From Desulfuromonadales bacterium (GTDB taxonomy: Bacteria; Desulfobacterota; Desulfuromonadia; Desulfuromonadales; BM103), in NCBI GenBank assembly GCA_023701265.1, contig JAMPXI010000009.1, forward strand, positions 1 to 37,290: a stretch of DNA of 37,290 nucleotides, in the 5' to 3' direction. Both the position numbers and the translations under genes were made by a program. Shown piece after piece: positions 2,191-36,029 of the stretch (positions within the stretch are counted from its first letter, which is position 1; each line of letters starts with the position of its first letter). The notes beneath the pieces were generated by a model that worked only from the letters and a program-made list of their open reading frames with translations, was not told the DNA's origin and ran no database searches.

Positions 2191-3852
2191 TCAATAGATT
2201 CTCTTGACCGGAACGTTCAGCTTGGAGCCGAAGACCGTATTGACGTTGACGGCCGTCGGGTTGGTCGTGAATTTGGCCACGATCCTGGTGTCGGTCCAGC
2301 TCTGGATCAGACCATCGACGGGCTTGGTCACGTAAACCGGTTTGTACTTGGTGCCGATATTGACCCTGACATTGGCGGTCACGCTGGTGCCGGAGCCGGC
2401 AGCCTTCATGTAGGACGAGAAGCCGGTGCCGGTGAGGGTCACCACGTAGCTTTTGGTGGTCGCCGTGGCGACGCTCAGCTTGGGCGTTACCGCCAGGTTC
2501 AGCGGGTTGCTCAGCTTCGGCCCTTTTTTCGCCGCGATCTTATAATTGCCGGCCGCCAGATCGGCGGGGATGATGACCTGGATCGCATCATTGAAGACGT
2601 TGACCGGGGAAAGCACGATCTGCTTGCCCGCCGCATCGGTCAGAACCACGTCCGATTTGGCGGTAATGGCATAGGCGCCGGTCATCGGATCCTGAATCTG
2701 GTTGATGAAGGCGGTGCCGGTCAGTTCGATGGCGTTCCCGGCCTGGACGCTTGAGGCGCTCAGATGATAAAGCCCGGGGACGACCGGGCCGCTGGCGGGA
2801 GCGGCGGAGGTGGTGGTGCGGTCGAAGCCGTGACAGCCGTCGCAGTCCCATTGCGCCCCGATATGGCCAAAACCACGCAGTTCCGCCCCCGGCTTGATGC
2901 CATCGGTCCCCGAGTCCACCTGGATGTTATGCAGCGACGGGATGCCGTGGCAGATTTCGCAGGTACGGATCGGGGAAGAGTTGAGGGCCGGATTCGGCTG
3001 GGCAAAAGAGTGGCACCACTGGCACTTGGTGCCATCCTCAAAGAAGCCGGTGGTGTGGTGGGTTTCGGAGTTGGTATAGACCAAGACCGGCGCGAACGGG
3101 CCGGAGTTCTCCGACACAGGCTGACCCTCCACGCCGGTCAGGTTGCTGTGGCAGAACTTGCAGCTGCCCTGCTTCTCGCCGAAGATGTTTTTGAGGCGGC
3201 TGTCGGTGCCGGTGGCCGGGCCGTTCGCCGGTTTTTTGCTGGGCCAGGGGGTGACGAGGCTGGCCTGGTAGGTCGGGATCCAGCCGCCATCGGCATAGCC
3301 GTCGCCGTTGAGATCCTCGGTCTTGTCAAGCGCGGCGATAATGCCGTCCTTGTCGGTGTCGAGCAGTCCCTTGTCGACAAAGGAGCCGTGGCAGGCGGCG
3401 CAGTCGCCGCTCTGGGCCAGGGCGCCGCGATGGTGAACGGTGCCGCCGGACGTGCCGGTCTGCTGGTGGCAAAGCGCGCAGTCGCGGAAGTTCGGATCGA
3501 GCACATACGACATGGTGACCGGGTTGTAGGTCGATTGATGACAGTTATAGCAGCCGTATGCGCTGTCCGCCTGGCCATTCCCGTCGGCATCGGTGTAAGG
3601 GATGTCGCTCGCGGCAGGGATGGCCGTGCCGACCAGCAGGTGGTGCCGATCCGGAAGGTAGGTCGGGTCCACCGCGGCAATCGGCGGGCTCTGGTTGTGA
3701 CAGCTGCGACAGCCGGTCTCCGTCAGGTTGTTGAATGTCGTATCGGGAATGCCGAGATGCTGGTTGACCGAGGGCGGGGGGACGGCGGCGTTGGCAGTGA
3801 TGACCGTTGCCGTCAGTAGGACAATTGCAAGGATGACACTTTTGCGGTTCAT
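2191..3852 (-). CDS. omcZ: OmcZ-like octaheme c-type cytochrome with C-terminal Ig-like domains
   Basis: A 553-residue exported multiheme cytochrome, expected to carry electrons outside the cell. The start at 3852 was chosen because AAGGAG lies 8 bases ahead and the protein then begins with a signal peptide (MNRKSVILAIVLLTATVITANA); the upstream in-frame ATG adds nine charged residues. Eight CXXCH haem-binding motifs begin at residues 48, 101, 125, 151, 231, 277, 298 and 337. After residue 355 come two IPT/Ig-like stretches (LSASSVQAGNAIELTGTAF; YVVTLTGTGFSSY) without Cys. G. sulfurreducens OmcZ is also an octaheme with a cleavable C-terminal domain, and its neighbours are a subtilase and a PpiC, as here. 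All eight motifs here are standard CXXCH; from memory, OmcZ has one CX14CH. OmcZ orthology is well supported by layout but not proven. The gene sits behind a three-riboswitch leader. Confidence 0.85.
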   Translation of the reverse strand: MNRKSVILAIVLLTATVITANAAVPPPSVNQHLGIPDTTFNNLTETGCRSCHNQSPPIAAVDPTYLPDRHHLLVGTAIPAASDIPYTDADGNGQADSAYGCYNCHQSTYNPVTMSYVLDPNFRDCALCHQQTGTSGGTVHHRGALAQSGDCAACHGSFVDKGLLDTDKDGIIAALDKTEDLNGDGYADGGWIPTYQASLVTPWPSKKPANGPATGTDSRLKNIFGEKQGSCKFCHSNLTGVEGQPVSENSGPFAPVLVYTNSETHHTTGFFEDGTKCQWCHSFAQPNPALNSSPIRTCEICHGIPSLHNIQVDSGTDGIKPGAELRGFGHIGAQWDCDGCHGFDRTTTSAAPASGPVVPGLYHLSASSVQAGNAIELTGTAFINQIQDPMTGAYAITAKSDVVLTDAAGKQIVLSPVNVFNDAIQVIIPADLAAGNYKIAAKKGPKLSNPLNLAVTPKLSVATATTKSYVVTLTGTGFSSYMKAAGSGTSVTANVRVNIGTKYKPVYVTKPVDGLIQSWTDTRIVAKFTTNPTAVNVNTVFGSKLNVPVKRIY

Positions 3853-4034
3853 ACCCAATTTCTCCTTTTCATAGTTCATTGCATGTCAAGTTGCTTCAAT
3901 ACTGGAACCGTTTAAGCCAAACGTACCCTTGTTCACCCCCTTTCCTTCGGGTTGTTCCGTTACACACCGGCCAAGTGCCGGTACATACAGCCAAAATCTC
4001 CTCGGGCTGGGCTTATGGAGGAATTTGGCATGAC

Positions 4035-4069
4035 AAAAAAAGCCAGGCTGCATGTGCATGCAACCCGGC
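4035..4069 (-). terminator. Intrinsic terminator of GEMM unit 3 (nearest omcZ)
   Basis: On the minus strand a 13-bp stem (4042-4069, GCCGGGTTGCATG with its partner, two-base loop, G-U pairs only as imperfections) is followed by seven T (4041-4035). Its 3' arm contains ACATGCAG, which is also the 3' strand of the aptamer P1 helix, so stem and aptamer are mutually exclusive. Confidence 0.85.
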
Positions 4070-4132
4070 CGTCTCGATGAGACCCGTGGCTTTCCGTCCC
4101 CGCCTCGCAACAGGTTTGGCAATACATTGCAG
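4048..4132 (-). promoter_or_regulatory. GEMM-I cyclic dinucleotide riboswitch, unit 3
   Basis: Minus-strand RNA with the GEMM-I core: AAACCTGTTGCGAGGCGGGG (P2 with loop), GACGGAAAGCCACGGG, the P3 hairpin GGGTCTCATCGAGACAGCC, then CCGGGTTGC. P1 is CTGCAATGT pairing with ACATGCAG (one bulged A). Units 2 and 3 are almost identical. It lies about 195 bases upstream of the cytochrome start. Confidence 0.88.
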
Positions 4133-4142
4133 TCATCAAAAT

Positions 4143-4177
4143 AAAAAAAGCCGGGCTGCATGTGCATGCAACCCGGC
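4143..4177 (-). terminator. Intrinsic terminator of GEMM unit 2
   Basis: Same hairpin as in unit 3 (stem 4150-4177) followed by seven T on the minus strand (4149-4143). The 3' arm again shares ACATGCAG with P1 of its aptamer. Confidence 0.85.
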
Positions 4178-4241
4178 TGTCTCGATGAGACCCGTGGTTT
4201 TCCGTCCCCGCCTCACAACAGGTTTGGCAATAACATTGCAG
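4156..4241 (-). promoter_or_regulatory. GEMM-I cyclic dinucleotide riboswitch, unit 2
   Basis: Second complete aptamer with the same P1 (CTGCAATGT/ACATGCAG), AAACCTGTTGTGAGGCGGGG, GACGGAAAACCACGGG and P3 hairpin. The P1 start is exactly 109 bases upstream of the same position in unit 3. Confidence 0.88.
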
Positions 4242-4254
4242 TATTCAGAACAAT

Positions 4255-4286
4255 AAAAGCCGGGCTGCATGTACATGCAACCCGGC
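4255..4286 (-). terminator. Intrinsic terminator of GEMM unit 1 (weaker tail)
   Basis: Stem 4259-4286 (13 bp, TA loop) followed by only TTTTATTG on the minus strand. The T tract is shorter than in units 2 and 3, so termination here may leak more. Confidence 0.7.
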
Positions 4287-4350
4287 TGTCTCGATGAGAT
4301 CCGCGGCTTTCCGTCCCTGCCTCGCGACAGGTTTGGCAATCAGAAATGCG
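4265..4350 (-). promoter_or_regulatory. GEMM-I cyclic dinucleotide riboswitch, unit 1
   Basis: First aptamer after the probable promoter: ATTGCCAAACCTGTCGCGAG, then GGGACGGAAAGCCGCGGATC and the P3 hairpin, ending CCGGGTTGCATG. The core is conserved, but the 5' P1 strand reads GCGCATTTCTG, which pairs only weakly with ACATGCAG. It is the most diverged of the three copies. Confidence 0.82.
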
Positions 4351-4373
4351 CTGTGCCTTTGAAGCAGGAGGAA

Positions 4374-4402
4374 GGTTAAGGCAAACAAATAAAGATTGTC
4401 AA
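4374..4402 (-). promoter_or_regulatory. Probable promoter of the riboswitch-omcZ transcript
   Basis: A perfect -35 TTGACA (4402-4397, minus strand) is followed after 17 bases by TTAACC, a poor -10. The start would fall near 4367, just ahead of the P1 strand of the first aptamer, in the AT-rich gap after ftsK. The weak -10 suggests activator help, or another sigma factor. Confidence 0.5.
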
Positions 4403-17832: not shown

Positions 17833-19776
17833 TTACTGGCAGGCGCTGTCGCCACTGCCGGTAACGAGCAGGTTGGCATTGCTCAAGAGCAGTCGCGCAA
17901 TGTCCTCGGGCGGGAGCGCCGGGCTGAGAAAGGTGCCTGCGACCTCGGTGCAGCCGTGGCTGCGCAGAAACTCCAACTGCCAGGCGTTTTCGACCCCGAC
18001 GGCAGTGACCGCCAGACCGAGGCTGCGAGTCATGCTGATAATGGCCTCGGTTATCGTCGCATAATCCGGGTTCAGGTCAATGTCGGAGATGAATTCCTGC
18101 GCGATCTTGATACGTTCGATCGGGAAGTGTTTCAAATAGAGAAGCGATGAGTAGCCGGTGCCGAAGTCGTCGATTGCCAGATGGATACCATGTACCTTCA
18201 GATCGGTGAGGGACATGATGATCTCCTGCACGTTGCTCATGACCGATGTTTCGTTCAATTCGACTTCAAGCTGCGACCACTCCATGGCGGTGCTTTCCAG
18301 GATCATTTCCAGTCGGTCGATGAAATTGGCCTGGCGGATATGGTGCCCCGACAAGTTGACAGCCATGCGCAATGGGGGCAGCCCGGCTTCTCTCCACAGG
18401 TGTGCCTGACGGCAGGCCGCTTCGAGGGTCCATTCCCCAAGAGGGAAGATCAGCCCACTCTCCTCGGCGACGCTGATGATCTGACTTGGCGAGATCAATC
18501 GTCCTTCGTGGTCGTGCCAGCGCAGCAGCGCCTCGACAGCGACAATCCGACCGCTGGCCAGTTCGATCTGCGGCTGATAGTGCAGGGTTAATTCCTGGTT
18601 GTGCAGCGCCTGGCGCAACCGGTTGGCAAGATCGGCACGGGCAACCGCCTGGGCGTTCATCTCGCCGGAGAAAAATTGGTAATTGTTGCGTCCCCGGCCC
18701 TTGGCCACGTACATCGCTGTATCGGCGCTTTTCAGCAGGGCCTGCGGGTCGTCGCCGTCGTGGGGATAGACGGCGACGCCAATGCTGGCCGTGGTGTAGA
18801 ATTCGCGCTCCCCAAGCTGAAAAGGTTCGCCGAGGGTTTCCAGGATGCGCCGCGCCAGAATGGCGAAATTGGGGTCCTGGTTCGGATCGGCCTGGACAAT
18901 GACAAACTCGTCGCCGCCCAGGCGCGCAAATGTGTCCCCTTCGCGGATGAATTTTTTCAGGCGCTGAGCCACGGAGCGAAGGACTAGATCGCCCACCGCG
19001 TGTCCCTGGGTGTCGTTGATCATCTTGAAGCGGTCCAGGTCGAAAAAGAACAAGCCGACCTGGCGATTGTCGCGGCGTGCCTGGGCGATGGCATGCAACA
19101 GGCGATCGTTGAGCAGGGCCCGGTTGGGGAGCCCGGTCAGGCTGTCGCAGTAGGCCAGTTTTTCGACGCGATCCTCGGCCGCCAACTGCTGGGTCAGGTC
19201 AGTCAGGACCGCCAGGCTTTCGGATGGCGCTCCCGTCTGGTCCGCGTGGCGCACCTCGGTCAGGGCGACATCAATCTCCCGGCCGTCAGCACAGCGCAAC
19301 CGATACCGGGCGTCGCGAACTTCTCCCTGTTCACACAGGGTCTGCAGGTGGAGGCGCTGAGCCGCGGTGGGATCGTCGGCCACGATGAAATCACTGAAAG
19401 GGCGGCCGCTCACCTGATCGTGACGGTAGCCGAGAGTGTCGAGCCAGGTCTGGCTGACGTAAACCAGGCGGCCGTTGGCGTCGAGGGAGTGAAGCATTGC
19501 CGGGGTGTTGCGATAGAGGGCCTGCAGGCGTTTTTCGCTTTCCCGAAGGCGGTGGCCCAGTCGTCCGAGCCGAATTTCGCTGCGGCCGAACAGCATCCCC
19601 GCGAGGGCACCGAGCAGGGCGGGGAGCATCAGCTGCGCCGGGTCGACCGGCAGGCCGTTGGCGTAACGCTCGATGGCCGCGACCGCGCAGAGAATGACCG
19701 CCCCGGAGACTGACCAGAACAGCATCGCCGGTAGTACGAGACGCCAACAGGATGCCTGCAGATTGGATGGGAGCAT
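17833..19776 (-). CDS. Membrane PAS-GGDEF-EAL cyclic-di-GMP enzyme
   Basis: A 647-residue c-di-GMP turnover protein. There are two N-terminal hydrophobic segments (LVLPAMLFWSVSGAVILCAVAAI; LMLPALLGALAGMLFG), a PAS domain (about 85-205), GGDEF (about 215-370) and EAL (about 385-640). The GGDEF motif is intact (RLGGDEFVIV), with an RxxD inhibitory site (REGD) five residues before it. The guanine-contact Asp (GHAVGDLVL) is present; this residue is Ser in the cGAMP-making Hypr enzymes, so c-di-GMP is the expected product. EAL motifs AVEALLRW, ELNET and DDFGTGYSSL are present; IKIAQEF replaces the usual KIDxxF. Both activities look possible. An upstream in-frame TTG (19788) is an alternative start. 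It may feed the GEMM switches of this genome, but that link is only inference. Confidence 0.93.
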   Translation of the reverse strand: MLPSNLQASCWRLVLPAMLFWSVSGAVILCAVAAIERYANGLPVDPAQLMLPALLGALAGMLFGRSEIRLGRLGHRLRESEKRLQALYRNTPAMLHSLDANGRLVYVSQTWLDTLGYRHDQVSGRPFSDFIVADDPTAAQRLHLQTLCEQGEVRDARYRLRCADGREIDVALTEVRHADQTGAPSESLAVLTDLTQQLAAEDRVEKLAYCDSLTGLPNRALLNDRLLHAIAQARRDNRQVGLFFFDLDRFKMINDTQGHAVGDLVLRSVAQRLKKFIREGDTFARLGGDEFVIVQADPNQDPNFAILARRILETLGEPFQLGEREFYTTASIGVAVYPHDGDDPQALLKSADTAMYVAKGRGRNNYQFFSGEMNAQAVARADLANRLRQALHNQELTLHYQPQIELASGRIVAVEALLRWHDHEGRLISPSQIISVAEESGLIFPLGEWTLEAACRQAHLWREAGLPPLRMAVNLSGHHIRQANFIDRLEMILESTAMEWSQLEVELNETSVMSNVQEIIMSLTDLKVHGIHLAIDDFGTGYSSLLYLKHFPIERIKIAQEFISDIDLNPDYATITEAIISMTRSLGLAVTAVGVENAWQLEFLRSHGCTEVAGTFLSPALPPEDIARLLLSNANLLVTGSGDSACQ

Positions 19777-35897: not shown

Positions 35898-35919
35898 TCC
35901 AAATGACGCCTTGTTCGCC

Positions 35920-36012
35920 GCTTCCCTCCGCCGGCATGACCCGGATCAGGTTCGAGGGGTCGCCCTGCCCAATGCAGGACTCTCAGCGAGTCAAACTCGC
36001 TCCCCCAGCGGG
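35920..36012 (-). promoter_or_regulatory. TPP riboswitch (THI element)
   Basis: The minus strand reads GGGGGAGC, GCTGAGAGTCC, AACCTGATCCGGGTCATGCC and GGCGGAGGGAAGCG, the conserved THI-box blocks in order, closed by a P1 helix. With TPP bound the downstream terminator would form and shut off thiED and thiC. Confidence 0.95.
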
Positions 36013-36029
36013 TTTTAAAAACGTGAGGT

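Follow-up and report, generated by a model that had tools for sequence, protein, structure and literature searches.

Known tandem riboswitches and the present locus

Riboswitches for c-di-GMP tend to occur in tandem and are enriched in Thermodesulfobacteriota (PMC12452182). A survey of tandem riboswitches has catalogued 12 triplet and 347 doublet c-di-GMP-I arrays; the triplets belong to the same architecture class as the array described here, and none in front of omcZ is named in that main text (PMC9481103). The closest described system is the Bc3-5 array of Bacillus thuringiensis, in which, as in our array, three complete c-di-GMP-I aptamers are each followed by their own terminator. Its terminators make use of P3, P1 and the ligand-contact C, and it has been tested as an ON-switch; it stands, however, in another phylum and in front of the cspABCDE operon, whereas the present array is known from sequence (PMC4759541). 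In Geobacter sulfurreducens, tandem GEMM-Ib riboswitches, for example before omcAHG, are likewise GEMM-I tandems in front of outer-surface cytochromes, but the omcAHG tandem has two units and cGAMP as ligand. The omcZ operon of the same organism has no known riboswitch, and omcZ responds to cyclic dinucleotide mutants (PMC6456294). The pilM riboswitch of Geobacter metallireducens resembles the present units in that its terminator is built with the 3' strand of the aptamer itself, the ligand-pairing C included, and differs in being a single unit with cGAMP as ligand (PMC9262584).

In our study, a window of 37,290 nucleotides (the whole of the stretch analysed, from the Desulfuromonadales contig JAMPXI010000009.1) was examined, and our main reading, to which a probability of about 0.78 is assigned, is that three homologous c-di-GMP-I riboswitches control the transcription of an omcZ-ozpA type operon in an array that has grown by unequal crossing-over. 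Triplet c-di-GMP-I arrays are already known, and the present one is a clean further example with a physiologically interesting target. No description of such a triplet on omcZ was found in the literature covered, which included the survey's main text. The preliminary description, made from the sequence, had known of no triple array on this gene; triplets as such have been catalogued (PMC9481103), tested in one instance (PMC4759541) and found again in the same family, as given in the last section.

Architecture of the aptamer array

On scanning the whole window with all Rfam models (cmscan), exactly three matches to RF01051 were obtained, each of them on the minus strand and covering the full model (1-87). 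Unit 1, the promoter-proximal one, lies at 4273-4347 (54.1 bits, E 5e-8), unit 2 at 4164-4238 (57.4 bits, E 8e-9) and unit 3 at 4056-4130 (52.3 bits, E 1.4e-7). The preliminary description had recognised three complete GEMM-I aptamers and had named fewer than three covariance-model matches as the outcome that would speak against it; three full-length matches of 52-57 bits against a gathering cut-off of 35 bits were found. With three complete aptamer-plus-platform units, where two would suffice, in one intergenic region and one gene downstream, the locus is a tandem riboswitch. When the Rfam models were run on the region around the array, other RNA families scored no better than chance. Elsewhere in the window, a TPP riboswitch was found at 35906-36016 on the minus strand (82.3 bits).

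The array is a direct repeat of a 108-nt unit with spacings of 108 and 109, and the covariance-model starts are 109 and then 108 apart, so that the exact 109-bp period given earlier was off by one base. The near identity of units 2 and 3 claimed at the same time is borne out by 90 identical bases among the 94 aligned. Unit 1 shares 81/94 bases with unit 2 and 80-81/94 across the comparisons with units 2 and 3. P2 and P3 are intact in all three units save for a single A-C mismatch beside the AG bulge in P3 of unit 1, and the P2 loops are of the GNRA type throughout (GCGA, GUGA and GCGA in units 1-3). P1 is very weak or absent in the units of the array.

Ligand pocket

The pocket nucleotides G20, A47 and C92, whose numbering we have set by analogy to Vc2 and pilM, are present in all three units, where the G precedes CCAAAC, the A follows GACGG and the C follows GGGTTG. 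Among tested aptamers, G at the discriminating position goes with c-di-GMP and A with c-AMP-GMP (PMC9481103). The array looks tuned to c-di-GMP because the pocket has G and not A in every unit, and c-di-GMP rather than cGAMP is predicted as its ligand. Both had been left open as ligands in the preliminary description; the pocket points to the former and away from the latter. Assignment to the GEMM-Ib/cGAMP class was rejected, since it needs A at the G20 position. The c-di-GMP-I-GGC family (RF03167), membership of which was defined by a score of at least 59 bits and G at position 47 (model consensus GCGAA), was also rejected for the array units, which score 54.5-58.4 bits and carry A at position 47. 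The single units at other omcZ genes match RF03167 by overall likeness, yet they also carry A47.

In ordinary diguanylate cyclases the GHxxGD motif ends in D, a residue whose meaning is known from PleD and GacA, and S at this position is the change seen in the cGAMP-making GacA. There are 15 GGDEF matches in the source genome, two of which (L102 and L105) have S in this motif (GHLVGS). Among the 19 matches to the GEMM-I family in the same genome, A at the discriminating position is clear only in L018 (G000:C122:30011-30087). This aptamer and the two GHLVGS domains suggest a cGAMP pathway beside that of c-di-GMP in the source organism. The window itself holds a GGDEF domain of the ordinary type (GHAVGD) at 18682-19155 on the minus strand.

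Terminators and predicted switch geometry

Three hairpins on the minus strand were found directly 3' of the aptamers, which agrees with the earlier claim that each aptamer has its own terminator. Terminator 1 (4258-4287) is a 13-bp hairpin with a 4-nt loop and an interrupted T tail (TTTTATTG), terminator 2 (4149-4178) has a stem of 13 bp and then a T run, and terminator 3 (4041-4070) has 13 pairs, more of them G-T than in the other two, and is likewise followed by a T run. Four terminator-like sites lie in the region against 1.0 expected. The P3 3' strand of the aptamer and the ligand-contact C (C92) together make up the terminator's 5' arm in every unit (AGCCGGGTTGCAT for units 1 and 2). Aptamer and terminator are therefore mutually exclusive, like those of the pilM ON-switch (PMC9262584) and of the B. 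thuringiensis units (PMC4759541). From this layout we infer that the units are transcriptional ON-switches, and the sharing of the P3 strand upholds the ON-switch geometry. In the absence of c-di-GMP the terminator would form and RNA polymerase would stop, whereas in its presence the aptamer would keep the shared strand and the polymerase would read on.

When the two folds were imposed, with ligand energy excluded, the terminator was favoured over the aptamer by 16.4, 11.6 and 8.7 kcal/mol in units 1, 2 and 3, respectively. In a transcript cut before the 3' arm of the terminator, P2 and P3 fold in units 1 and 2, and the unconstrained fold of unit 3 at aptamer length is not the aptamer. The modelled energies and the folding of the cut transcript in units 1 and 2 are what a pilM-like ON-switch would lead one to expect (PMC9262584).

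Nine units of the same genus were aligned, namely the three of this array, the two of a sister genome and two doublets in front of other multihaem cytochromes. The terminator stem is paired in 100% of cells; its outer pair varies among A-U, G-U and G-C, and one pair is changed on both sides. The aptamer helices are paired in 97% of cells, with a P3 mismatch in four units. For nine such close sequences this indicates that pairing is retained, and it is not strong or independent proof of covariation.

Expected effect of three gates

Under the proposed mechanism, cytochrome would be made only from polymerases which pass all three points, giving a low leak with the loss of some maximum output. In a gate model which assumes three independent units, basal read-through is cubed, the maximum is lowered and the EC50 becomes about 3-4 times the single-unit K, while EC90/EC10 goes from 81 to 32-46, corresponding to an effective Hill coefficient of 1.15-1.26. 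According to the model, a lower leak is the main effect of three independent gates and the response is only slightly steeper. The steep response predicted in the preliminary description is not borne out, as the Hill coefficient of independent gates reaches no more than about 1.26; the low basal level also predicted there holds in the model if the gates are independent, since the leak is strongly lowered, at the price of a lower maximum. The B. thuringiensis triple agrees with the model in that leak and maximum both fall as units are added: output at high c-di-GMP goes from 90% to 46% and 29% with one, two and three units, and induction from 1.2 to 1.8 and 3.4 fold (PMC4759541).

Target gene and its surroundings

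The gene downstream of the array, at 2191-3852 on the minus strand, encodes a protein of 562 aa with eight CxxCH motifs. Its best solved relatives are the OmcZ structures 8d9m (E 7e-50) and 7lq5 (E 1e-34), in line with the OmcZ-like cytochrome gene first proposed at this place. Translation probably starts from the ATG at 3852, which has GGAG in front, and an in-frame ATG is also present at 3879; residues about 171-195 are without counterpart in OmcZ. The homology, the eight hemes and the adjacent OzpA-type protease identify the product from its sequence as an octaheme OmcZ homologue. In Geobacter, high current on electrodes depends on OmcZ, which forms conductive filaments outside the cell, and c-di-GMP is an attachment signal. 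The OmcZ-like cytochrome is probably made only when c-di-GMP is high and, if the main reading is true, c-di-GMP would directly license the synthesis of a nanowire cytochrome at the level of transcription.

The next gene on the same strand (578-2041) encodes an OzpA-like protease of the subtilisin family (S8) with a prodomain, and would be co-transcribed with the cytochrome gene. This order, omcZ and then the protease gene ozpA, is a known one, and OzpA cleaves OmcZ to the filament form (PMC9473688). Upstream of the array lies a gene named ftsK-like from its sequence. A tentative candidate promoter was located at 4373-4401 on the minus strand, with TTGACA, a 17-nt spacer and a weak -10 box TTAACC, and TTGACA-17-TTAGCA occupies the corresponding position in front of the sister genome's doublet. 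A consensus scan of the region gave no sigma-70 promoter match at the array, and it also missed the candidate TTGACA box.

A strong anti-SD-like element (GGAAAGGGGGTGAACAAGGG; AAAGGAGGTGA in relatives) was observed at 3927-3950 of the window on the minus strand. It precedes the omcZ start by roughly 80-150 nt, and almost all of the omcZ 5' UTRs read (L021, L022, L024, L027, L028, L031 and L034) have retained it, those with no riboswitch included. No conserved small ORF was found after it in these 5' UTRs. The element is possibly a ribosome stand-by site or a site stabilising the mRNA.

Relatives and growth of the array

An OmcZ-like protein is present in 14/136 genomes of the order and, at a stricter cut-off, in 27/277 of the class. 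In the sister genome, Desulfuromonas sp. MAG MnB_14 (G022; L021/L050), two homologous units against three in our array stand at the same place, within the same gene order of ftsK-like gene, array, omcZ and S8 protease, and this fits the duplication of units which had been proposed earlier. A single unit precedes more distant omcZ homologues in at least eight cases (G040, G041, G043, G045, G105, G123 and, twice, G124). On reading the flanks, no unit was seen before the omcZ homologues of other orders in the class (14 loci), nor before several further omcZ copies within the order. Short GEMM-like pieces before omcZ in G100 (L022, TGCCAAACCTGT) and G124 (L025, GGCAAAACCCAATGCGAGGCGGGG) were rejected as units, being devoid of covariance-model signal even at E 1; they are suggestive by eye and are possibly decayed riboswitches.

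Unit 1 is similar to unit 1 of the sister genome (TCGCGAGGCA, GGATCT), and the other two units to its unit 2. In the middle unit, the 5' half is like that of sister unit 2 (GTGA loop) and the 3' half like that of unit 1 (GACAGCC). The two linkers of the array are each related to the single linker of the sister (CTGCAATGT). This hybrid middle unit and the related linkers fit, at few sites, an origin of the third unit from a doublet by unequal crossing-over, in which unit 2 of one copy would have recombined with unit 1 of another. The array would then have grown from one unit to two and from two to three; in the alternative direction, a unit may have been lost in the sister genome. With zero, one, two or three units on one gene family, these loci provide a natural experiment on extra riboswitch copies and on array growth and shrinkage.

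A pattern search over 277 genomes of the class, with a seed-specific pattern, found the three-fold array as a riboswitch only in the source genome, the three other genomes with three-fold matches having repetitive coding-like sequence. Matches to the two-fold pattern were recognised as riboswitch doublets only in this genus, again with a seed-specific pattern, which misses arrays such as that of G005.

Alternative explanations

The points against the main reading include the weak P1, the P3 mismatch and broken U tract of unit 1, the non-aptamer fold of unit 3 at aptamer length, the two GGDEF proteins with the cGAMP-type serine, with which cGAMP may be present, the draft state of the genome, and a predicted cross-pairing between units. 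The first of these bear on the explanation that one or two units still sense the ligand and the others are decaying copies, acting as plain terminators or attenuators which only lower expression. Recently duplicated units need not all be under selection and, besides the defects of unit 1, the terminator stem of unit 3 is weaker and P1 is poor. We nevertheless consider such decay unlikely: all three units have kept their pocket nucleotides, P2 and GNRA loop and almost every P3 pair, the mismatch of unit 1 is common to sister unit 1 and the G021 doublet and hence tolerated, and a constitutive strong terminator would silence the gene. That the array works as proposed but answers 3',3'-cyclic AMP-GMP (cGAMP), like most GEMM-Ib switches before Geobacter electron-transfer genes, appears quite improbable. 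Many Geobacter cytochrome genes are under such switches (PMC6456294), and the two GGDEF domains with GHLVGS in place of D would suit a cGAMP response, but all three units have G where cGAMP aptamers have A, and L018 alone of the 19 genome matches clearly has A. An assembly artefact, with a true locus of two units, might be suspected from the draft state of the genome (180 contigs) and the two units of the sister; it is very hard to reconcile with units differing at 4-14 of about 94 bases, unequal spacings (109 and 108) and different linker sequences, and is considered extremely improbable.

The predicted cross-pairing concerns the independence of the gates. The three terminators are near-identical and near-palindromic, and equilibrium folding predicts pairing between units. 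In this equilibrium model, which is without tertiary contacts, ligand energy or kinetics, imposing the aptamer of unit 1 pairs the free arm of that unit with the strand of unit 2 at 0.77-0.99 as long as terminator 2 is incomplete and at 0.24 thereafter, and imposing the aptamers of units 1 and 2 reduces terminator 3 to about 0. The same cross-pairing is obtained for the sister doublet, with 0.55 after terminator completion. The units might accordingly depend on each other, the free 3' terminator arm of a ligand-bound unit 1 capturing the P3/terminator strand as unit 2 or unit 3 emerges; such pairing would block the downstream aptamer as well as the downstream terminator, and the first decision would be relayed. 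This dependence is quite improbable, as local hairpins usually form first and kinetics may well prevent the capture, and in B. thuringiensis leak and output go down with every further unit of the triple, in the manner of independent gates (PMC4759541). We hold it to be a distinctly remote prospect that the array as a whole is a relay with one main decision, in which binding at the first unit frees an arm disabling the later terminators and copy number tunes the coupling. If true, this would give tandem riboswitches that stem from recent duplication a new way of acting.

Other arrays in related genomes

Triplets are not unique even within the family, because G005 carries another one, with three c-di-GMP-I aptamers at a period of about 182 (L109 1053-1506; G005:C168:4851-5304) in front of a small secreted-protein-like gene. 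Its third unit is without a clear U-tract terminator and ends near a possible start codon, and may act on translation. In the source genome, a second short-period doublet was observed at L111 (G000:C59:48500-52600), with 55.4 and 53.3 bits at a spacing of 113. The gene following it encodes a cytochrome of 965 aa, which has 33 CxxCH motifs and carries an F5/8 type C domain at its C terminus. The arrangement in G021 (L110) is as at L111, with a cytochrome having 26 CxxCH motifs.
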